Below the pieces are notes generated by a model, which did not search any database, was not told the DNA's origin, and saw only the letters and a program-made list of their open reading frames with translations. From Providencia burhodogranariea DSM 19968 (GTDB lineage Bacteria > Pseudomonadota > Gammaproteobacteria > Enterobacterales > Enterobacteriaceae): a stretch of DNA of 64,000 nt. Shown here piece after piece: positions 32,058-40,955 of the stretch. The stretch lies in assembly GCF_000314855.2 (NCBI RefSeq), contig NZ_KB233222.1:2165342-2229341 (forward strand). The letters are read 5' to 3'. Position numbers and translations under genes: made by a program. Position 1 is the first letter of the stretch; the number at the start of each line of letters is the position of its first letter.

Positions 32058-32891
32058 ATGAACAATGAAAACTTCAATGCGCAGAACACACCAACCCCTT
32101 CTGCAAACGAATATAATCAAACTGATAACTCAGTGTTTCTACCCGAGCCACGTGCAGTTGATGCAGGTGAAGGCATTAATTGGATTAGCCAATCTTGGGC
32201 AATCGTTAAAGAAAAACTGGGAATGTGGGTACTGATCAATATTATTTTCTTCGCTTTCATTCTTATCGTCTCAATGATCCCATTTGTGAACTTTTTCGTT
32301 AGCTTTCTGACACCAATCCTAATTGGTGGCATTATTGTGATTTGTGAAAAACAACGTAAAACCGGCGAAGTGGATATTGGTTCATTATTTGCTGGTTTCC
32401 AGCAAAAATTTGGTGCTCTTTTTGCTGTGGGTGCGATTAATTTCGGTGTAACGCTGATTGGCATGATTATCGCACTAATGATTGGTGGTACTGCTGTACT
32501 TGGAGCGGTTATGGAAATGAATGAGTATGGAACAATATCTCCAGATGTCGTTATGGCATTAAGTGGTTCATTCTTCTATATTTTCATTATAATGGCTATC
32601 GCAAGTTTATTAGCAGCTGCAATGACTTGGTTTGCACCAGCACTTATCATGAACCATGATTTTAAAGTCGGTGCAGCTATTTCAGCTAGCTTGAAAGCTG
32701 TCTCTAAAAATATCCTTCCCGGTATTCTGTTCTTTATCGTAATGGCTATTATTTTAGTTATTTCAGCAATTCCATTAGGATTAGGTTTGTTGATCACCAT
32801 GCCTATTATGTACGTTGGTTATTATACTAGCTATCGCAGTATCTTCTTTGCACATGATAATAAAGCACAACAAAACTCAATCGTTGAGTAA
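32058..32891 (+). CDS. BPSS1780-type integral membrane protein
   Basis: A 277-residue inner-membrane protein of unknown function. The first 45 residues are polar and Asn-rich, followed by the family hallmark RAVDAGEGINWISQSW and about six hydrophobic segments (near residues 55-75, 80-95, 115-145, 170-195, 215-235, 240-260). This matches the BPSS1780 family as I remember it. It stands alone with its own bidirectional terminator. No enzymatic motif is visible. Confidence 0.75.
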   Translation: MNNENFNAQNTPTPSANEYNQTDNSVFLPEPRAVDAGEGINWISQSWAIVKEKLGMWVLINIIFFAFILIVSMIPFVNFFVSFLTPILIGGIIVICEKQRKTGEVDIGSLFAGFQQKFGALFAVGAINFGVTLIGMIIALMIGGTAVLGAVMEMNEYGTISPDVVMALSGSFFYIFIIMAIASLLAAAMTWFAPALIMNHDFKVGAAISASLKAVSKNILPGILFFIVMAIILVISAIPLGLGLLITMPIMYVGYYTSYRSIFFAHDNKAQQNSIVE

Positions 32892-32970
32892 ATTATTAAC
32901 TAAAAATACTCAAGGTGCATATAGGTAATACAATCTATGTGACTTGTGTATAACTGATAAATAATGATTA

Positions 32971-33007
32971 AAAATACCCAGCACGTTGTGTGACTGGGTA
33001 TTTTTTT
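32971..33007. terminator. Bidirectional terminator
   Basis: Stem AAATACCCAG with CTGGGTATTT (32972-32981 and 32994-33003), with an inner CAC/GTG, has T runs on both strands. It would end the membrane-protein gene on the plus strand and the small minus-strand ORF at 33023-33091. Confidence 0.88.
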
Positions 33008-33022
33008 GATTTAAATAAAACG

Positions 33023-33091
33023 CTAAGCAAATAAATCTGCTCTCAGCTTCTGATGTTCAGAAAATGCATTCATTTTCTGCTTTTCACTCAT
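33023..33091 (-). CDS. Candidate 22-residue small protein
   Basis: A short frame encodes MSEKQKMNAFSEHQ followed by KLRADLFA. It has an AAAAAGGTGA ribosome binding site seven bases before the ATG, and a good terminator begins about 16 bases past its stop. The peptide is charged and hydrophilic with an amphipathic look and no membrane segment. I do not recognise it. It lies immediately downstream (on its strand) of the operator array of the PTS operon and could share that control, but translation is unproven. Confidence 0.4.
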   Translation of the reverse strand: MSEKQKMNAFSEHQKLRADLFA

Positions 33092-33131
33092 CACATCACC
33101 TTTTTATATTCTTGTTTAATCACTCTTCTGC

Positions 33132-33212
33132 GAAACACGAGTGTTTTTTAAAACTCTTGTAAGTTTAGTGTATCAATGACGTGAAACACTAATTCAAAAA
33201 AAGAAACACTAA
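33132..33212. promoter_or_regulatory. Upstream activator site array for the PTS operon
   Basis: GAAACACTAA occurs twice in direct orientation 20 bp apart (33183-33192 and 33203-33212). Related sites are the inverted TTAGTGT at 33165-33171 and the palindromic GAAACACGAGTGTTT at 33132-33146. The array lies about 55-135 bases upstream of the -24 element, where enhancers of sigma-54 activators such as LevR are found. A similar GAAACACTTT sits in the leader of the activator gene itself. Confidence 0.6.
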
Positions 33213-33267
33213 AAAACAAGGTAAAACAGTATCAACTATCATATTGTTTTATAAGAATAATATAAAG

Positions 33268-33285
33268 TTGGCACGAAACATGCTC
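33268..33285 (+). promoter_or_regulatory. Sigma-54 (-24/-12) promoter of the PTS operon
   Basis: TTGGCACGAAACATGCTC carries GG and GC exactly 12 bases apart (33270 and 33282), matching TGGCAC-N5-TTGCW with one change in the -12 box. It is 100 bases upstream of the EIIA gene, and a LevR-type sigma-54 activator is encoded at the end of the locus. Confidence 0.85.
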
Positions 33286-33384
33286 TATATGACAAGCAAC
33301 CAGAGTTTAAAAATATTACCCGAGTTAAATAGCAAATATTCGCTTTCAAAGCTCAAATCAGAATTATAAGGGGATCAGCAAAGT

Positions 33385-33774
33385 ATGAAGTGTACCGTTG
33401 TGATTGTTACACATGGAAAGTTAGCGAATGAGCTATTAGAAACCAGCCGTATGCTTATAGGCGATCAAGAAGATGTGATGACCTTAGACTTTTTACCCGA
33501 TGAAAATATGGAAGGCTTAATCAAAAAAATAACTAAGGCTATTGAAACCTTACCCACGGTAGTTCCTATCTTGATACTTGTGGACATGCTATCAGGTAGC
33601 CCATTTAATGCCTCAACCTTTATTGTAAAAAATAGGCCAGGAACTCGAATAATACCCGGAGTTAATATTCCTATGTTGCTCAATATTTTACTTGAACGTT
33701 CCGAAGTTGAAAATTTAGATGAACTTGTTGAGTTAGCAGTAACCGTCGGAAAAAATGCGATAAAACCACTATAA
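33385..33774 (+). CDS. PTS mannose-family EIIA component
   Basis: A 129-residue stand-alone EIIA of the mannose family, which takes phosphate from HPr on the histidine in VIVTHGKLA (residue 10) and passes it to EIIB. The LVDMLSGSPFNAS and GVNIPMLLN stretches are family hallmarks. AAGGGG precedes the ATG. It is the first gene of an EIIA-EIIB-EIIC-EIID operon under the sigma-54 promoter. Separate EIIA and EIIB genes, as in LevD/LevE, differ from the fused ManX of E. coli. Confidence 0.93.
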   Translation: MKCTVVIVTHGKLANELLETSRMLIGDQEDVMTLDFLPDENMEGLIKKITKAIETLPTVVPILILVDMLSGSPFNASTFIVKNRPGTRIIPGVNIPMLLNILLERSEVENLDELVELAVTVGKNAIKPL

Positions 33775-33791
33775 CAAAATGGAGATGTATT

Positions 33792-34274
33792 ATGTCTAAT
33801 ATTTCACTATTACGTATTGACGATAGATTAATTCATGGTCAAGTTATGACGGGATGGGTTAAACATTTAAATGCATCAAAAATTATCATTATTGATAATG
33901 AATTAGTTAATGATGATTTTATGATTTCAGTATTAGAAATGGCAGTGCCAAGTCATATGCAGTTAAATATCTATTCTGTAGATAATGCAGTATCAATTTT
34001 AAAAAATATTCAAAATGATGGACGAGATGACCAAATTATTATCTTAGTTAAAAGTCCGCTACCTGTTTGGGAGTTGATCAAACAAGATGTTAATTTCGAT
34101 ACACTTACTGTTGGTGGTATGGGAGTGAATGAAAATAGAACAAAATTATATCGTAATCTAGCTGCATCACAATCAGAAAGAGAGGCCTTTAGAGAGATAA
34201 GCAAAACGGGTTTACCTATCTTAATACAAGTTATACCAAATGATAACCCGAGTGATTTATTACAACACTTATAA
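33792..34274 (+). CDS. PTS mannose-family EIIB component
   Basis: A 160-residue cytosolic EIIB that phosphorylates the incoming substrate. The phospho-histidine lies in RIDDRLIHGQVMTGW (residue 15). The GGMGVNENRTKLYRN segment is typical of mannose/sorbose-family EIIB. It lies 17 bases after EIIA. Substrate specificity cannot be read from it. Confidence 0.94.
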   Translation: MSNISLLRIDDRLIHGQVMTGWVKHLNASKIIIIDNELVNDDFMISVLEMAVPSHMQLNIYSVDNAVSILKNIQNDGRDDQIIILVKSPLPVWELIKQDVNFDTLTVGGMGVNENRTKLYRNLAASQSEREAFREISKTGLPILIQVIPNDNPSDLLQHL

Positions 34275-34319
34275 TATTAATAATAAAAATATCTGATCCT
34301 ACACTGAAGGATAATAACC

Positions 34320-35063
34320 ATGTTAATCCCAGCAATATTAGTTATGTTAATTGCGACAATTACCAACTGGTGGGGTATGCATTTAATAACCCGCTCTTGG
34401 ATCTATCCAATTATATCCGGGTTTTTAGTTGCAATTGCATTAGGCGATCCTATTGAAGGAATGAAAGCCGCAGCTTATATCAACTTAGCCTATTTAGGCT
34501 GGATGACTGTTGGCGGGACCATGCCAGGAAACTTACCTGTCGCATCTGTATTTGGAACAGCAATGACAATATTAAGTGGTGCTGAACCTTCCACTGCTGT
34601 TGTATTTGCCGTGCCATTTTCTTTATTAGGTATCCTCACATTCCAAGCTGCAATGAGTATTAATGCATTATGGGTTCATAAAGCCGAGACCATGCTAAAT
34701 AATGGGAATATAACTGGCATGCGGATTATGAACTATGTTCCATCATTCTTTGTTGCACTAATTTTAGTCGGAATTCCAGCTTTCTGCATGGTTTACTTAG
34801 GTGCAGATTTTATGAAGAGCATGCTATCACAAATACCAAAAAGCCTTGTTGAAGCATTCCAAGTTATCGGTGGTATTATGCCTGCACTCGGTATCGCAAT
34901 GCTTGTATCGTTCTTAGGAAAGAAACATTTAATGCCATTTTTCTTCCTTGGTTTCTTCCTAGTTGCATTCCTAAAAATAGATATTATGGGTATCGCTGTA
35001 TTTGCCATTATTGCAGCAGTTATCATGAATATGGATTTAAAACCATCTGTAAATAAAGAATAA
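34320..35063 (+). CDS. PTS mannose-family EIIC permease
   Basis: A 247-residue membrane component with about seven hydrophobic segments, forming the sugar channel together with EIID. Family traits include GDPIEGMKAAAYINLAYLG and GGTMPGNLPVASVFGTA. It lies 45 bases after EIIB and 16 bases before the likely start of EIID. Confidence 0.93.
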   Translation: MLIPAILVMLIATITNWWGMHLITRSWIYPIISGFLVAIALGDPIEGMKAAAYINLAYLGWMTVGGTMPGNLPVASVFGTAMTILSGAEPSTAVVFAVPFSLLGILTFQAAMSINALWVHKAETMLNNGNITGMRIMNYVPSFFVALILVGIPAFCMVYLGADFMKSMLSQIPKSLVEAFQVIGGIMPALGIAMLVSFLGKKHLMPFFFLGFFLVAFLKIDIMGIAVFAIIAAVIMNMDLKPSVNKE

Positions 35064-35079
35064 ATAAGAGGTGGATATA

Positions 35080-35937
35080 ATGAGTAATATAGCAGAAACT
35101 GATGTAATCATAAAGAAACAGTCACTCACAAAAATCGAATTATTAAAAGCTTGGGCATTAAATTATTCTTCTGAAGCTTGTTATAACTATGAACGTTTAC
35201 AAGCATTAGGACAAGCCAACGCCATGGTGCCTGTCATTCGGAAATTATATCCAAATGACAAAGAGAGTCAGGTTAGAGAATTAAAGAAATATCTCAACTT
35301 CTTTAATACAGAACCCTCATTTTGCGGTACGGTAATTACAGGTGTTTCTTCTGCAATGGAAGAACAACGTGCGAATGGCGCGGATATTCCTGCTAATACT
35401 ATTACATCATTGCGCTCTGGATTAATGGGACCTGTCGCAGGTATCGGTGATACGATTCAGGCCATTGTCTATTCTATTCTAGCGGCAATTGCATGTAACT
35501 TAGCTATACAAGGTAATATAGCTGGTCCTATCATATTTGAGGTCGCCTATAAATTTATCATGATATTCTGTAGTTTAAATATGTTCTTTTTAGGTTATAA
35601 AAAAGGCCGAACAGTTATTCTCGACCTATTAAAGAAAGGATTAATTGATAAATTAACCAATGCATTTGGCTTAATTGGTCTTATGGTAGTTGGTGGTATG
35701 GCTGCAGCTCGAGTTGATGTAATGACACCAGCCACAATTAACATCAATGGTATTGATATTGTATTCCAAGATATTTTAAACACCTTATTACCGTCACTGA
35801 TCCCTTTATTAATTACTATTTCAATTCTGAGAATGATCAGAAAAAAAATGAAACCAAATACGGTTATTGCGATTATTTTCATCTTTGGTATCGCAACCTC
35901 TTATCTTGGGCTACTAGCTGTACCAGGTGCAGCTTAA
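35080..35937 (+). CDS. PTS mannose-family EIID permease
   Basis: A 285-residue membrane component with the EIID signatures WALNYSSEACYNYERLQALG, FFNTEPSFCGTVITGV and SLRSGLMGPVAGIGDTIQ, and hydrophobic segments in the C-terminal half. I choose the ATG at 35080 because GAGG lies seven bases upstream; a GTG at 35071 is also in frame. It ends the membrane part of the PTS; a 186-base gap with an ERIC-like repeat precedes the metabolic genes. Confidence 0.93.
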   Translation: MSNIAETDVIIKKQSLTKIELLKAWALNYSSEACYNYERLQALGQANAMVPVIRKLYPNDKESQVRELKKYLNFFNTEPSFCGTVITGVSSAMEEQRANGADIPANTITSLRSGLMGPVAGIGDTIQAIVYSILAAIACNLAIQGNIAGPIIFEVAYKFIMIFCSLNMFFLGYKKGRTVILDLLKKGLIDKLTNAFGLIGLMVVGGMAAARVDVMTPATININGIDIVFQDILNTLLPSLIPLLITISILRMIRKKMKPNTVIAIIFIFGIATSYLGLLAVPGAA

Positions 35938-35954
35938 GCTTCTAATTTAAACTT

Positions 35955-36095
35955 TATACCTTAATTAATTTAAATTATACGATATAAATAAACAAAGCAT
36001 TATCTGATGATAAAACCCAAGTCATAAAAATGACATTTTGACTTGGGTCGCTGAGTTCTATCAATATCCATGCAACTTAAAGTATGACGGGTATA
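35955..36095. repeat. ERIC-like element inside the PTS operon
   Basis: The right half (CTGAG at 36051, then CCATGCAACTTAAAGTATGACG to GGGTATA, in two overlapping parts up to 36095) closely parallels the right half of the element at 48.8 kb. A weaker left terminal copy (TATACCTTAATTAATTTAAA, 35955-35974) gives about 141 bp. Inside is a 10-bp hairpin (ACCCAAGTCA with TGACTTGGGT, 36015-36024 and 36039-36048). It could affect mRNA stability or read-through between EIID and the dehydrogenase gene. Confidence 0.55.
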
Positions 36096-36123
36096 TATCT
36101 TCAATTCAGATCTTGGAGTTTAT

Positions 36124-37164
36124 ATGAAAGTTTTATCATTAACCCAATTAGGGCAATTTGAATTACAAGAACGTGAAAAACCTACCGCTGGTGCTGGTGA
36201 AGTATTACTTAAAGTTTGTGCCGCTGGCGTATGTGGCTCTGATATTCCAAGAGCATTTGTTAATGGTCCTTACCATTATCCGTTAGTATTAGGTCATGAA
36301 TTTGCAGGACAAATCGAAGCTGTTGGAGATGGCGTTGATGGTGTGTTGATCGGCAGAAAAGCGGCAATCTTCCCATTAATACCTTGTAATGAATGTCAAT
36401 TTTGCCATGAGCACCACTATGCTAAATGTACAAACTACAGCTATTTTGGTTCTAGACAAGACGGTGGCTTTAGTGAGTACGTCGCAATACCTGAATTCAA
36501 TTTAATTCTGTTAGATGATAAGACAGATCTGCGTGAAGCGGCCATGCTTGAACCTGCAGTTGTTGGATTGCACGTCATGCGCAGAGCACATTTAGATTTA
36601 AATGATAATGTCGTTATTTATGGCGCGGGTCCCATTGGGATCATGGTTGCTCGCTGGGCGAAAATCTATGGTGCGAATAAAGTACTACTCGTCGATGTCG
36701 ACCCGAAAAAAATTGATTTTTGCAAAAAACTCGGTTTTAACTTGGTATGTAATGCAAGGGAAACAGACCCCGTACAATGGGTACTCGATAATACGGATAG
36801 CCATGGTGCTGATGTTTGTGTCGAAGGCAGTGGCTCCTCCTCTGGATTGGTGAATTCTCTGGCATCTTGCCGTGTATATGGAAAGGTTCTACTACTTGGT
36901 AATCCGCATTCAGATATGGTTTTACCTCGCTTAGCTTATGACAAATTTATGCGTAAGGAAGCAACTATTTTAGGCGTATTCAATTCCGTTTATAAATTGA
37001 ATCCACACGATGAATGGAAAGATGCCGCGGAAGCAATTCAGTCAGGTAAACTTAAAATTGATGACTTGATTACTCATACAGTAAGCATCGATGATCTCGA
37101 AAACCTGATTCAAATAATGTACAAAAATTCCGAACCTTATTGTAAAGGAATGATGGTGATGTAA
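36124..37164 (+). CDS. Zinc-dependent polyol-phosphate dehydrogenase, GatD-like
   Basis: A 346-residue medium-chain alcohol dehydrogenase. Catalytic zinc ligands are the cysteine in AAGVCGSDIPRAF (near residue 37) and the GHEF histidine-glutamate (near residue 59). A structural zinc group is in PCNECQFCHEHHYAKC, and the Rossmann motif is GAGPIGIMVA (near residue 165). It resembles galactitol-1-phosphate dehydrogenase GatD most, so it probably oxidises the polyol phosphate delivered by the PTS to a keto-sugar phosphate. GGAG precedes the ATG. Its stop overlaps the start of the isomerase gene. Confidence 0.88.
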   Translation: MKVLSLTQLGQFELQEREKPTAGAGEVLLKVCAAGVCGSDIPRAFVNGPYHYPLVLGHEFAGQIEAVGDGVDGVLIGRKAAIFPLIPCNECQFCHEHHYAKCTNYSYFGSRQDGGFSEYVAIPEFNLILLDDKTDLREAAMLEPAVVGLHVMRRAHLDLNDNVVIYGAGPIGIMVARWAKIYGANKVLLVDVDPKKIDFCKKLGFNLVCNARETDPVQWVLDNTDSHGADVCVEGSGSSSGLVNSLASCRVYGKVLLLGNPHSDMVLPRLAYDKFMRKEATILGVFNSVYKLNPHDEWKDAAEAIQSGKLKIDDLITHTVSIDDLENLIQIMYKNSEPYCKGMMVM

Positions 37165-37727
37165 TGGATAAACTCTCATATATCGAGCGTGTAGATCATA
37201 TCAGTCAGGAATTAAGAACTGTATTATCACACATAGATCCAGCACAAACAGATGATTATATTGCTATTATTTTAGCTTCCGACAAAATATTTGTCACCGG
37301 CGTCGGACGGGTATTATTAGCATTAGAAACGATGGTTAAACGCTTTAATCATTTAGGTATTTCAGCTCATATTGTCGGTGCGGTAAATGAACCCCCAATA
37401 AGTAAAAATGATTTGCTTATTGTAGGTTCGGGTTCTGGTGAATCTTTAATTCCTAAACACATCACTCTATGCGCTAAAAAAATTGGTGCTAAAATTGCTC
37501 ACTTGACCTCTAGCCCACACAGTTCAATTGCTCAGCAATCGGACGTCATTGTCAATTTCAAATGTGGATCAAAATCTGGGGAAGGAACCTATCAATCAAT
37601 TCAACCAATGACAACGTTATTTGAACAATCATTAATGGTATTTGGCGATATTATTTGTTTAGAATTAATGCAATTAAAAGAATTGTCATATGCTGACGTC
37701 AGTAAGAATCATGCTAATCTAGAGTAG
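37164..37727 (+). CDS. SIS-domain isomerase, 6-phospho-3-hexuloisomerase type
   Basis: A 187-residue single SIS-domain protein of the size and pattern of 6-phospho-3-hexuloisomerase (HxlB/PHI). Visible are FVTGVGRVLLALETMVKRF (near 43-61), the phosphosugar loop IVGSGSGES (near 91), LTSSPHSSIAQQSDV, and a C-terminal helix with FEQSLMVFGD. HxlB converts 3-hexulose 6-phosphate to fructose 6-phosphate. No hexulose-phosphate synthase is present, so formaldehyde fixation is not implied; here it would act after the adjacent dehydrogenase. One base is shared with the preceding stop codon, so translation is coupled. Confidence 0.85.
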   Translation: MDKLSYIERVDHISQELRTVLSHIDPAQTDDYIAIILASDKIFVTGVGRVLLALETMVKRFNHLGISAHIVGAVNEPPISKNDLLIVGSGSGESLIPKHITLCAKKIGAKIAHLTSSPHSSIAQQSDVIVNFKCGSKSGEGTYQSIQPMTTLFEQSLMVFGDIICLELMQLKELSYADVSKNHANLE

Positions 37728-37752
37728 CACTACGTTTTATAATCATCGAGAA

Positions 37753-37786
37753 TGCGGGCAAACCCTCTAGGTCTGCCCGTATTATT
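37753..37786. terminator. Bidirectional terminator between PTS operon and its activator
   Basis: Stem CGGGCA with TGCCCG (37755-37760 and 37774-37779), with an inner ACC/GGT, separates two convergent genes. AT-rich tails lie on both sides. Confidence 0.65.
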
Positions 37787-40512
37787 TATTCAGATTCAAT
37801 CATATCAATAATATAAAACAGTTCATCATCACTTAATTTAGCACCAATTTTTTCTTCAAGTAAATAATTAGCATGTTGATAAATTTTAAATAACTGACTA
37901 TCCATCAATTTTTGTTTATTATTTTTATTATACTCAATAGATTCATGTCGAATCGATCTTTCCAGTGCTAAACAAATATGAACACAATTTTTTAGTAAAT
38001 CTTTCCCAAAATCATCCAGTTCTCGCTCTTCTCTTATTTTTCGAATAAAAGACATTATAATTGGGACAATTTTCTTCGGATTTAAAAATACTAAAAAATC
38101 TTGTAAGTATTGTTCTGAAAGCTTAGTTACCGTCACTGGATTTTCATCCGATTTTCCTGTTGTAAAGCTTCTACCAATAACATTCTGAAAAGTTAATTCT
38201 CCAGCGGGTGTGAATAAATGGGCTAATGGAATATACGGTGCATCTAATTGCGGATCTATGACCCCTACTGATAATAAAACCTGATAATCGGTGAGTAAGC
38301 TGTGTTTTTCTGATAAGACTTCATCAACTGAAATATTGACGATGTGGATATCCTTTCGATTCATTTCATCTAGAATAGAGCGTAATAGATCTTGTAATTT
38401 TTTAGCGATCCCTTTCCCTGTTGAACAAATGGCCAGAATCGCTAATGGTTTTTCCGTTAATGCGAGATAATCCGGCTTATTAGCGCCATAACCTTTAAAG
38501 TGCTGTAAGCTAAAATAGATTTCATTTAAATCTGCATTCAAAATTACCGTTCTACGTAGGGCTTCGATCACTAAAGGAGTGGAAACCATATCTAATGTTT
38601 TGACAGGAATATTATATTCTTGTTCGATTATCTCACCAGCTTGCAATAAGGAGCCCATATCAACCAGTAATAAAAAACCTTTTGCATTTTCGGTCGATAT
38701 AATGGTTCCTTTGATTTTATCTATAGCTTGATTTGGACGAATATCCAGTGGCATATCTACGGCTGTTATATTCTGTTCGCCAATTAATTTTTTAGCGATA
38801 TCTGCCATGTTACTCGCAATTTTTTCACCGTGAGTGGCAACAATAATATGTATGACTTTCCCTCGTTCATGAACAACAAGAGATGATAACAAAATAGTGA
38901 GGTAAGCAACCTCATCATCATTAATCGAAACATTAAAATCACTTTGAAGCCGTGTTTTGATGGTCTGAGCAGAACCATATTCTTTAAATTTATCGATGGC
39001 ATAACGACGAGTCCAAGTATTCACACGGTAAGTTTGTGGATTGTCGATAATATTCTGTAAATGATAGCCAAATAAATAAACAAATCCGTTGCCTAACTCT
39101 TTACCAAGTTGCAACGTAATCTCAGCTTGTAATGAATAACAGAAATTAAGTATTTTACTATCGATGCCATGATCAAAATTATCTTTGCTATTTTGAATGT
39201 TAAATGACAAGAAATTATTAAGTTCAGATGTAATATAGCGATTAACTTGTTGGATATCGAATTTTTGGTCTAAGATAAAATTCATTCTATTATCAATGAA
39301 TTCATAAACCTTAAAAGGCGTATCATGCTTAGTTAAATCGATATAGCTGTCATTTGATAATTGATAATGTGGACTATCTGGTGATACATGAATACCATCA
39401 CCAATTGCTCGCTTTATTTTAGATTGATAGTCATTGTCACGCTCTAGGTTAAAAACGCCCATTTTCGTGGTCAATTCTAGTGCTTCAAAGTTTACATTTA
39501 TATGATTTTCATGAGCACTTTTATCAATAAAAAATTGAGCACATACAGATTGTATGGTGGACTTTAATTTGCCAATATTGCCAGTAAATGAAGAACCCAC
39601 AATAGCTTTGACACTTTCTGGGTCAAGCGATACTGCACAGTTAATTCGTTTAGATTCAATCTCTACGAGGAATTTAACCAGCTCAATTTGATCTTCTGGT
39701 GTTCGTTGGGCGAGATTAGGAAGATGTATCGTAATCGGGATACGTCTTAAAAAAGTTGATAACAGTGCTGAGCTAGGTTCTTCAGTGGTTGCACAGACGA
39801 GTAATATTTCAGATTCTCTATGGCGTTTTGTCTCACCTAAGAAGCCGTATGTCCCCGTATCCATAAAATAAAAGATCATCTCCTGACCTTCTGGGGGTAA
39901 CCGGTGTACTTCATCTAGGAATAACATTCCGCCATTTGCTTCACTAATTAATCCTGCTTTGTCTTTATCAGCACCTGTGAATGCCCCTTTAGCATGACCA
40001 AAAATATGGGAAACAAGTAGCTGAGGATTACTTGCATAATCAGCGCAATTAAATACAATGAATGGTGCATTATCTGCCAGACGATTCATGAACACAGCGT
40101 ATTTGTACATTAAAGTTGCAAAAAGACTTTTTCCTACGCCAGTATCTCCTGTTAATAAAGTATGTAACCCCTTAGGTGGGTAAATCACTGCCGCCTTTGC
40201 TTGGCTGATCTGTTTTTTTAAGCTTGAGTTATATCCTAAAAGATAATAAAAGGGATCAGGGATATTTGACTTTAAATATTCAGTTGTATTCTTTTCTACG
40301 TTTCCAATAAGTTCCTTTTTGTTCGTATGATATTGAACTGGGCGCGTATTTGTTTTATAAATTAATCCTTCATTAACCAGGATATTTAGGTAATGACTAA
40401 CGTTAGCTCTTGATATTCCAGTTTGTTCAACTATTTCAATTGTCGTCGCACTTATTGAATTATTTTGCGTTAATTCAATCACTTTTTCCAATATTCTATC
40501 TTTCCTACTCAT
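37786..40512 (-). CDS. LevR-type sigma-54 activator with PRD and PTS domains
   Basis: A 908-residue transcription activator. In order: an N-terminal winged helix (about 1-60), an AAA+ domain with Walker A GDTGVGKSLF (near 115) and the sigma-54 contact loop GAFTGA (near 170), a first PTS regulation domain (about 440-550), an EIIA-mannose-like domain (about 555-690), a GatB-like EIIB segment, and a second PRD at the C-terminus. This is the LevR/DagR architecture: phosphorylation by the PTS tunes activity. It is convergent with the PTS operon. ATG at 40512 is chosen; a TTG at 40518 is also open. Confidence 0.92.
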   Translation of the reverse strand: MSRKDRILEKVIELTQNNSISATTIEIVEQTGISRANVSHYLNILVNEGLIYKTNTRPVQYHTNKKELIGNVEKNTTEYLKSNIPDPFYYLLGYNSSLKKQISQAKAAVIYPPKGLHTLLTGDTGVGKSLFATLMYKYAVFMNRLADNAPFIVFNCADYASNPQLLVSHIFGHAKGAFTGADKDKAGLISEANGGMLFLDEVHRLPPEGQEMIFYFMDTGTYGFLGETKRHRESEILLVCATTEEPSSALLSTFLRRIPITIHLPNLAQRTPEDQIELVKFLVEIESKRINCAVSLDPESVKAIVGSSFTGNIGKLKSTIQSVCAQFFIDKSAHENHINVNFEALELTTKMGVFNLERDNDYQSKIKRAIGDGIHVSPDSPHYQLSNDSYIDLTKHDTPFKVYEFIDNRMNFILDQKFDIQQVNRYITSELNNFLSFNIQNSKDNFDHGIDSKILNFCYSLQAEITLQLGKELGNGFVYLFGYHLQNIIDNPQTYRVNTWTRRYAIDKFKEYGSAQTIKTRLQSDFNVSINDDEVAYLTILLSSLVVHERGKVIHIIVATHGEKIASNMADIAKKLIGEQNITAVDMPLDIRPNQAIDKIKGTIISTENAKGFLLLVDMGSLLQAGEIIEQEYNIPVKTLDMVSTPLVIEALRRTVILNADLNEIYFSLQHFKGYGANKPDYLALTEKPLAILAICSTGKGIAKKLQDLLRSILDEMNRKDIHIVNISVDEVLSEKHSLLTDYQVLLSVGVIDPQLDAPYIPLAHLFTPAGELTFQNVIGRSFTTGKSDENPVTVTKLSEQYLQDFLVFLNPKKIVPIIMSFIRKIREERELDDFGKDLLKNCVHICLALERSIRHESIEYNKNNKQKLMDSQLFKIYQHANYLLEEKIGAKLSDDELFYIIDMIESE

Positions 40513-40924
40513 ATACAAAGTGTTTCCTATAGTAATATTTTTATTGATGGGGCACTTAGTGATATAAATTTGGTTTTTAATAAAAAATTAAAATATAATA
40601 AAACTTGAAGATTAATAAAGATATAAAATCTATTACTAATATAATTCATGTCGTATCTAAATGACAAGTGATGCTATCCACAAAGTATTAATAATATGAT
40701 AAAACAAATCTAATTGAAAATAATCAATATCAAAATAACGTGGAGTATGATGTCCATATATCGAAATCAGTAAATTAGACATAAAAAATGAGGTAATTAA
40801 ATTTACGCTATAAACAAAATAAAGTTAATATTATACTTAAATAATAGTTGCATTTTTATTTAACTAATATTCAAATTTAATGTTAACTTTTTAAAATATT
40901 TCTTGATAATTTAAAAACAAAAAA
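40513..40924. other. Intergenic region between the activator and serS
   Basis: About 410 very AT-rich bases between two minus-strand genes. GAAACACTTT (minus strand, 40526-40517), related to the PTS operator sites, overlaps the leader of the activator gene. No gene is supported. Confidence 0.6.
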
Positions 40925-40955
40925 TAAAAAACCGCCACTGCAATAGTGACGGTTA
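40925..40955 (-). terminator. Terminator of serS
   Basis: ACCGTCACT pairs with AGTGGCGGT across one mismatch (minus strand, about 40954-40930), followed by TTTTTTATTTT, 28 bases past the serS stop. Confidence 0.85.

Follow-up and report, generated by a model that had tools for sequence, protein, structure and literature searches.

The 64,000-nucleotide window analysed here (contig 1, positions 2165342–2229341, of the 4.58 Mb genome of Providencia burhodogranariea DSM 19968) carries seven intact open reading frames flanked by serS and by a gene for a BPSS1780-family membrane protein. Six lie on the + strand and encode the four subunits of a mannose-family phosphotransferase system (PTS), a GatD-like dehydrogenase and an isomerase consisting of a single SIS domain; the seventh, an activator gene, is convergent with them on the − strand.

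33385–33774, + strand: mannose-family PTS EIIA (PF03610, EIIA-man, 90 bits; TIGR00824, 110 bits, over its cut-off)
33792–34274, + strand: mannose/sorbose-family PTS EIIB (PF03830, PTSIIB_sorb, 149 bits)
34320–35063, + strand: mannose/sorbose-family PTS EIIC (PF03609, EII-Sor, 200 bits)
35071–35937, + strand: mannose-family PTS EIID (PF03613, EIID-AGA, 273 bits)
36124–37164, + strand: GatD-like zinc-dependent medium-chain polyol-phosphate dehydrogenase (Pfam ADH_N/ADH_zinc_N; tree clade 100/100)
37164–37727, + strand: single-domain SIS isomerase of the HxlB family, in a separate hxlA-free clade (Pfam SIS; TIGR03127, 162.7 bits)
37786–40518, − strand: LevR/DagR-type sigma-54 activator (Pfam Sigma54_activat, EIIA-man and PRD; GAFTGA motif in the AAA+ domain)

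These are the components named in an original prediction made from the sequence, and Pfam supports each of them. The dehydrogenase stop and SIS start overlap by 1 base in the window (17 bases in Enterococcus raffinosus), and the two genes abut in locus L033 of G064, a genome from a further genus of the family. The gene set is not a chance assembly, being found in identical arrangement across two phyla and displaying dN/dS ratios of 0.04–0.34 relative to Providencia alcalifaciens.

The SIS protein (187 aa) scores just over the cut-off of TIGR03127, the 6-phospho-3-hexuloisomerase (PHI) model (162.7 bits against 160), and its G064 orthologue just under it (156.1 bits). Seven members of the clade described below score 156–172 bits, compared to 232 and 260 bits for two hxlA-linked proteins and 206 and 208 bits for two others outside the clade. 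The nearest solved chains are YckF (1m3s, 1viv), AF1796, the fusion of hexulose-phosphate synthase (HPS) with PHI (9lj9) and MJ1247. That the protein might group with deglycases or other non-PHI families had been raised with the original prediction; it matches the HxlB family, and identification as a deglycase, AgaS or KdsD/GutQ was rejected, as KpsF/GutQ reaches 28.6 bits against a cut-off of 203.7, no deglycase or AgaS model is listed among the matches and the nearest structures are of the HxlB type. Hexulose-phosphate synthase (HxlA) had been predicted to be absent, and the best TIGR03128 match in the genome is indeed 26 bits against a cut-off of 200; a role in formaldehyde fixation was rejected on this ground. 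By tblastn, none of the 13 clade members has an adjacent hxlA.

In the final tree of SIS proteins (32 rows) the window protein falls in this 13-row clade with 100/100 support. A constraint grouping the five rows linked to a mannose-type PTS with eight hxlA-linked rows was rejected (approximately unbiased test, p = 3.3e-6, a guide only since the choice of groups followed an earlier tree). All members of the clade share eight residues that occur in none of the remaining 19 rows (V47, V50, K59, E76, P97, I100, H113 and T150); these fixed changes lie in conserved loops. For this tree L180 was added, and two outgroup rows and six long-branch rows were dropped (L087, L144, L044, L041, L045 and L141, of which L141 is hxlA-linked and L144 RPE-linked). 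In the earlier tree, which retained the long-branch rows, the clade (then 12 rows) had 99/98 support; the dropped L087 shares V47. The alignment also omitted two SIS pieces of Enterococcus alishanensis (L100), whose SIS gene (L100:11156–11588) is split in two reading frames by either gene decay or sequencing error.

The SGSGE, FEQ and HANLE motifs are common to the SIS protein and an hxlA-linked Priestia protein. Like HxlB of the ribulose monophosphate (RuMP) pathway (YckF 1m3s/1viv; HPS-PHI 9lj9), which supplies its closest solved relatives, the window protein is a single SIS domain; unlike it, it has no HxlA in its locus or genome and carries V for A at position 47, V for S at 50 and T for A/G at 150. 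The predicted PHI type therefore holds at the level of the family, but the protein is not a canonical HxlB, since its clade is distinct, hxlA-free and marked by fixed changes. Members of this clade are named 6-phospho-3-hexuloisomerase in the databases, though no examined member adjoins the synthase.

The best NCBIfam model for the dehydrogenase is galactitol-1-phosphate 5-dehydrogenase (GatD, NF007642), at 232.5 bits against a cut-off of 550, so the enzyme is not an equivalog. It retains what we take to be the motifs of a cysteine-rich structural zinc site and of a catalytic zinc site. In a 66-row tree it lies in a 6-row clade (100/100) in which all six rows are SIS-linked and which, when the tree is rooted with SorE (a very distant root), is sister to the group holding E. 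coli GatD. In none of the 58 other locus rows does an HxlB-type gene (> 60 bits) lie within 3 kb, although short contigs restrict this count; the weak SIS match (45 bits) beside the dehydrogenase at L084 is an RpiR-type regulator, and L046 and L087 carry HxlB-like genes at greater distance. Searched against solved structures with hmmsearch, the dehydrogenase alignment gave no matches at a limit of 1e-70. Sixteen of the 58 rows are linked to IspD (TarJ-like by context). As a separate observation, L057, L061, L066 and other loci of gut and rumen bacteria combine a GatD-like (TarJ-like) dehydrogenase, an IspD-like cytidylyltransferase and an epimerase of the RPE (ribulose-phosphate epimerase) fold, and are candidates for CDP-polyol synthesis with an epimerisation step.

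Five members of the SIS clade (the window, L053, L033, L009 and L054) have a mannose-type PTS with the GatD-like dehydrogenase. Six (L034, L035, L036, L037, L038, and L137 of E. coli) have a mannitol-type PTS with an SrlD-like short-chain dehydrogenase/reductase (SDR) and an RPE-fold gene, the SDR gene adjoining the SIS gene in four loci and lying approximately 5–6 kb away in the same cluster in L036 and L137. One (L180) has a mannitol-type PTS, an MtlD-like dehydrogenase (336 bits, cut-off 356) and an RPE-fold gene, and at L030 a GatC-type permease and SIS gene are divergent from a set comprising LacI, a pfkB kinase and an RPE-fold gene; no dehydrogenase was found at L030. Since the MtlD-linked SIS protein of L180 nests inside the sub-branch of the window protein (support 97/92), the dehydrogenase has been exchanged. 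GatD, SrlD and MtlD are named for oxidation at the carbon next to the free end of the polyol, where C5 of a 1-phosphate is C2 of a 6-phosphate. To judge from these family names, the association of three dehydrogenase families with one SIS clade speaks for a common 2-ketose 6-phosphate intermediate and against a special C3 dehydrogenase. The original prediction had proposed oxidation of a hexitol, perhaps at C3, followed by isomerisation to fructose 6-phosphate; the C3 step is weakened by these pairings, while the hexitol substrate and the end point remain plausible.

That prediction also envisaged a route of two enzymes, which describes Providencia and G064 L033, but 10 of the 13 clade members have an RPE/AlsE-fold gene at the locus. 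The clade epimerases stem from three lineages (AlsE type, mannitol-PTS type and L030 type) in a tree that left out five short duplicate loci and the L180 epimerase, which was scored separately. Their separate origins suggest that epimerases were recruited more than once for a step connected with the SIS reaction; beyond the clade, HxlB-like genes have epimerases of yet other lineages as partners. The dehydrogenase–SIS pair is followed in all three Enterococcus loci by genes for an SDR and an AlsE-type epimerase. On NF007266 (AlsE; cut-off 271) the E. raffinosus enzyme reaches 342 bits; its nearest solved structure is AlsE 3ct7 at 274 bits, the next reaching 147. No AlsE over the cut-off was found in the genome of the window, where the sole RPE-fold match (177 bits against the same cut-off of 271), the housekeeping Rpe, groups with E. 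coli Rpe.

We tentatively favour the interpretation that the operon, under LevR/DagR-type sigma-54 control, serves one rare hexitol or a related ketohexose through a relay that begins with oxidation at C2 and ends in fructose 6-phosphate. The PTS would import the hexitol and phosphorylate it at C6, and the dehydrogenase would oxidise C2, as GatD-type enzymes do, to give a 2-ketohexose 6-phosphate other than fructose 6-phosphate. The SIS protein would then shift the carbonyl between C2 and C3, an RPE/AlsE-fold epimerase would invert the carbon that adjoins the carbonyl group (C4 of a 3-ketose or C3 of a 2-ketose), and the SIS protein would return the carbonyl to C2, yielding fructose 6-phosphate; in Providencia the epimerase step would fall to the housekeeping Rpe. 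An RPE-type enzyme could invert C4 of a 3-hexulose 6-phosphate because the geometry of that carbon relative to carbonyl and phosphate equals that of C3 in ribulose 5-phosphate.

Which hexitols would need which enzymes was worked out with Fischer projections of the eight D-series hexitol 6-phosphates, on the assumption that the SIS protein leaves the hydroxyl on its original side, as in the conversion of arabino-3-hexulose to fructose. With oxidation at C3 and no further enzyme besides SIS, mannitol and altritol are the only hexitols that lead to fructose 6-phosphate. With oxidation at C2, mannitol and glucitol give fructose 6-phosphate at once, allitol and altritol need only a C3 epimerase, galactitol and talitol need SIS plus a C4 epimerase via tagatose 6-phosphate, and gulitol and iditol need all three. 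D-tagatose 6-phosphate, formed from galactitol or from D-talitol 6-phosphate (= D-altritol 1-phosphate), would thus be the 2-ketose requiring exactly these enzymes, and D-altritol/D-talitol or galactitol fit best as candidate substrates. The most specific version of the proposal is that an hxlA-free HxlB-type isomerase and C4 inversion by an RPE-fold enzyme carry tagatose 6-phosphate to fructose 6-phosphate without kinase or aldolase, in a module assembled several times with differing PTS, dehydrogenases and epimerases and using the housekeeping Rpe in Providencia; so fully specified, it is unlikely.

Several observations weigh against the C2 relay. The operons of the window, P. alcalifaciens (L053) and G064 (L033), 3 of the 13, contain no epimerase, although G064 has an RPE-fold gene at a second locus, L034; in the window the absence of a dedicated enzyme favours direct oxidation at C3. 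We know of no RPE that acts on a 3-hexulose phosphate, and the Enterococcus epimerase, being of AlsE type, suits allulose 6-phosphate better than a C4 step. We infer the C2 regiochemistry from family names. Moreover, hxlA-linked HxlB genes outside the clade also adjoin MtlD- or SrlD-like dehydrogenases (L039, L050, L052, L136), and because C2 oxidation in such cases would give fructose 6-phosphate itself, a C2 dehydrogenase beside HxlB is no proof of an unusual 2-ketose. The genome also already encodes a GatZ/KbaZ protein, so tagatose 6-phosphate may have another outlet. The relay, then, accounts for the dehydrogenase families, the locus with a kinase and the epimerases, but leaves the missing Providencia epimerase unexplained.

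It is at this point that direct oxidation at C3 has its strength. On this account the dehydrogenase oxidises C3 of a hexitol 6-phosphate, by stereochemistry that of D-altritol or mannitol, and the SIS protein converts D-arabino-3-hexulose 6-phosphate into fructose 6-phosphate, which would explain why Providencia and G064 L033 have only a dehydrogenase and SIS protein encoded by overlapping or abutting genes, and is consistent with a SIS protein over the HxlB cut-off and a genome with a single RPE-fold gene; only for C3-oxidised mannitol or altritol 6-phosphate does the SIS protein suffice alone. It demands, however, a C3 dehydrogenase within a C2-type family, while other partners of the SIS clade are SrlD-like dehydrogenases, an MtlD-like one and a kinase, the SIS loop residues depart from hxlA-linked HxlB at fixed positions, and the epimerase at 10 of 13 loci is left unexplained. 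We consider the C3 route possible, if doubtful: no other reading fits Providencia as well, and none fits the remaining clade members as poorly. The Enterococcus loci are instead fitted best by a path through D-allulose 6-phosphate, produced from allitol or altritol 6-phosphate by C2 oxidation and converted to fructose 6-phosphate by C3 epimerisation, a step that AlsE would perform in Enterococcus; in Providencia it would fall to the SIS protein, acting via the 3-keto form with relaxed protonation. This path retains C2 chemistry, requires no epimerase in Providencia and accords with the AlsE-type gene that follows the dehydrogenase, SIS and SDR genes in 3 of 3 Enterococcus loci (checked by hidden Markov model and PDB search for the E. 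raffinosus gene). Yet it makes the SIS protein redundant wherever AlsE is present, other epimerase lineages occur elsewhere in the clade, and isomerases of the SIS/HxlB kind normally retain the face of protonation; we regard it as improbable.

The substrate could alternatively be a pentitol (arabitol, ribitol or xylitol) or another polyol; the SIS protein would then act on a pentulose phosphate in a repair or side reaction. Pentulose phosphates are RPE substrates, the nearest dehydrogenases without a SIS partner are often IspD-linked (the 16 of 58 loci noted above), and in Bacillus methanolicus a gene annotated as galactitol-1-phosphate 5-dehydrogenase is reported to be induced together with the arabitol operon (PMC6685057). 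For a pentitol, however, a dehydrogenase and Rpe would suffice and the SIS protein would be superfluous, and the Enterococcus epimerase is of the AlsE, or hexulose, type; we would give this explanation little weight, as little as the path through allulose 6-phosphate. Finally, the SIS protein might be an aldose–ketose isomerase (such as one that forms allulose 6-phosphate from the 6-phosphate of allose or altrose) with the dehydrogenase acting on the matching alditol. L030, with a kinase, SIS gene and RPE-like gene and no dehydrogenase found, has the composition expected for an imported sugar, but without AlsE the Providencia pathway would stop short of fructose 6-phosphate, and the HxlB-family reaction is a 2-keto/3-keto interconversion, which makes this the least probable of the explanations considered.

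The loci define a recurring module in Enterobacterales and Enterococcus, comprising a PTS, a polyol-phosphate dehydrogenase and an HxlB-type isomerase, usually with an RPE-fold epimerase. If either the C2 relay or the C3 route were true, the module would give a rare hexitol entry into glycolysis free of aldolase and kinase, a widely used annotation would be corrected and enzymes for rare-sugar interconversion would be gained.

Among known systems, the closest in content is SUB0285–0289 of Streptococcus uberis 0140J, described by annotation in 2009 as a mannitol-type PTS with RPE, PHI and MtlD (PMC2657157). Like the recurring module it unites a PTS, a polyol-phosphate dehydrogenase, PHI and RPE in one operon, and by annotation, the only level of comparison, its composition equals that of L180; it differs from the window, with its mannose-type PTS and GatD-like enzyme, in having a mannitol-type PTS and MtlD. 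The account of the Salmonella dga (DgaR) and gfr (GfrR) operons, whose sugars are D-glucosaminate and glucoselysine/fructoselysine (PMC4987338), likewise describes a mannose-family PTS and a LevR-like sigma-54 activator controlled via PTS regulation domains, whereas the enzymes of the window are a dehydrogenase and an HxlB-type isomerase. The sorbose operon (sorE and the sor PTS; E. coli CFT073, L157) resembles the window in its mannose-family PTS with separate EII subunits and its zinc dehydrogenase (SorE), to which an SDR is added, but has no SIS gene, and its SorE lies on a very long branch in the dehydrogenase tree. GatD of the galactitol operon gatYZABCDR (E. coli K-12, L154) represents the characterised family that best matches the window enzyme, but lies on another branch, and that operon has a Gat-type PTS, tagatose aldolase genes and no SIS gene. 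In E. coli BEN2908 a SIS_PHI gene adjoins a glucose-type PTS gene, according to PMC12928451.

We found no functional study of an operon with this content in our searches of the open-access PMC literature. The claim that no operon of this composition has been characterised thus stands to that extent, although similar content had been annotated in S. uberis. As far as these searches show, the new elements are the hxlA-free clade and its fixed residues, its association with dehydrogenases of three families and epimerases of three lineages, and the mannose-type, sigma-54-controlled version common to Providencia and Enterococcus.

At E ≤ 1e-60 the dehydrogenase was found in 2 of 24 genomes of the genus, including the window's own, which was also the only one of 394 sampled genomes of the order with a close copy (two other matches were 33–34% identical); a search with the SIS protein in 198 sampled genomes of the family gave the whole set in one further genus (G064, L033). 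The gene set is present in at least P. alcalifaciens (L053), G064 (L033), an E. raffinosus megaplasmid (L009), Enterococcus sp. MJM16 (L054) and E. alishanensis (L100), and a second record, NZ_CP104765, also matches. This spread is a lower bound, as the scan of relatives (L053–L132) kept 80 of 554. EIIC is 65–100% identical across relatives. A near DNA search of E. coli genomes gave no match to the operon; 14 of 5426 E. coli genomes contain a match to a related SIS gene, and one such locus was inspected.

P. alcalifaciens L053 is the same locus, with 95–100% protein identity and matching flanking genes. The seven genes display dS values of 0.04–0.11 between the two species, compared to 0.53 and 0.36 for the two flanking genes, so the locus has moved recently; the operon was probably acquired horizontally. 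In two of the four other congeners compared (G207 and G218) the BPSS1780-family gene lies next to serS, the aligned blocks being 66 and 127 bases apart; compared with these genomes, the window therefore contains approximately 8 kb of inserted DNA. In the other two, G217 (L151) and G201 (L152), other DNA of approximately 4 kb and 2 kb occupies the interval, which looks like an insertion hot spot in Providencia. The insertion and the candidate regulatory elements within it are as follows.

32855–40925, no strand: extent of insertion relative to G207, in which the BPSS1780-family gene and serS adjoin
33132–33146, no strand: near-palindromic box GAAACACGAGTGTTT, candidate activator binding site, seen in the sequence
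33183–33210, + strand: two GAAACACT boxes, candidate activator sites, from the window count against shuffles
33269–33284, + strand: sigma-54-type −24/−12 element TGGCAC-N5-ATGCT, 100 bp upstream of EIIA, with 1 mismatch to the pattern
36015–36048, + strand: hairpin with 10-bp arms in the 186-base EIID–dehydrogenase gap, from fold z-score and conservation
40519–40526, − strand: GAAACACT box immediately before the start of the activator gene, candidate for autoregulation, from the window count

The predicted sigma-54, LevR-type control of a mannose-family PTS operon was supported by the activator, which has N-terminal helix-turn-helix, AAA+ (with GAFTGA), EIIA-man and PRD (PTS regulation) domains, and by the −24/−12 element upstream of EIIA. 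The best NCBIfam model for the activator is the D-glucosaminate regulator DagR/DgaR (NF047795), at 464 bits against a cut-off of 1400, and it is thus not an equivalog. The −24/−12 pattern occurs 12 times in the whole window against 12.7 expected, which is chance level, so the promoter call rests on conserved position: a match with at most 1 mismatch lies on the same strand within approximately 100 bp upstream of EIIA in all five loci searched (the window, L033, L009, L054 and L100).

The GAAACACT box occurs 6 times in the window against 2.23 expected (3 of 100 shuffles reach this count), and three of the six copies are at the PTS locus; one of the two upstream of EIIA sits in a stretch absent from P. 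alcalifaciens. GAAACAC occurs twice upstream of EIIA in L033, where its total count is not above chance, and the limits of the original prediction, 33132 and 40526, fall on GAAACAC-type boxes. These boxes are candidate activator sites on weak evidence. A pattern built from the GAAACACGAGTGTTT site gave 4 matches with at most 2 mismatches against 1.91 expected, a count reached by 17 of 100 shuffles, so this box alone is not significant. The EIID–dehydrogenase gap is 98% identical to that of P. alcalifaciens and folds as a whole with z = −3.39 (1 of 200 shuffles equally stable); no T run follows the hairpin.

HxlB-type genes also lie in further gene sets. An island in E. coli ET350 (L136, 3531–16249) encodes HPr, a mannitol-type PTS, MtlD, HxlA (270 bits, cut-off 200), HxlB, a sigma-54 activator, glycerol dehydrogenase, PfkA and transketolase, and looks like a hexitol route via hexulose phosphate to ribulose 5-phosphate. 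The Salmonella plasmid pS2122_1 (L139, 5452–9187), as well as L042 and L049, combines PtsG, a glucose-6-phosphate-isomerase-family protein, HxlB and HxlA, possibly to convert glucose to ribulose 5-phosphate and formaldehyde by RuMP enzymes running in reverse. In Pantoea, Klebsiella and other Enterobacteriaceae (L031, L138, L043, L048 and L051), a Gat-type PTS, an Rpe-fold epimerase, an SDR and an HxlB-like protein form a second PTS/epimerase/SIS module outside the SIS clade of the window protein, in two named records on plasmids typed as conjugative. A YjbQ-family protein accompanies an RPE-fold epimerase and an HxlB-like protein at L140, L144 and loci of family f27 (L165, L166, L170–L175, L178 and L179); L140 and L144 also carry a Gat-type PTS, and the SIS query matches 151 Enterococcus plasmid records.

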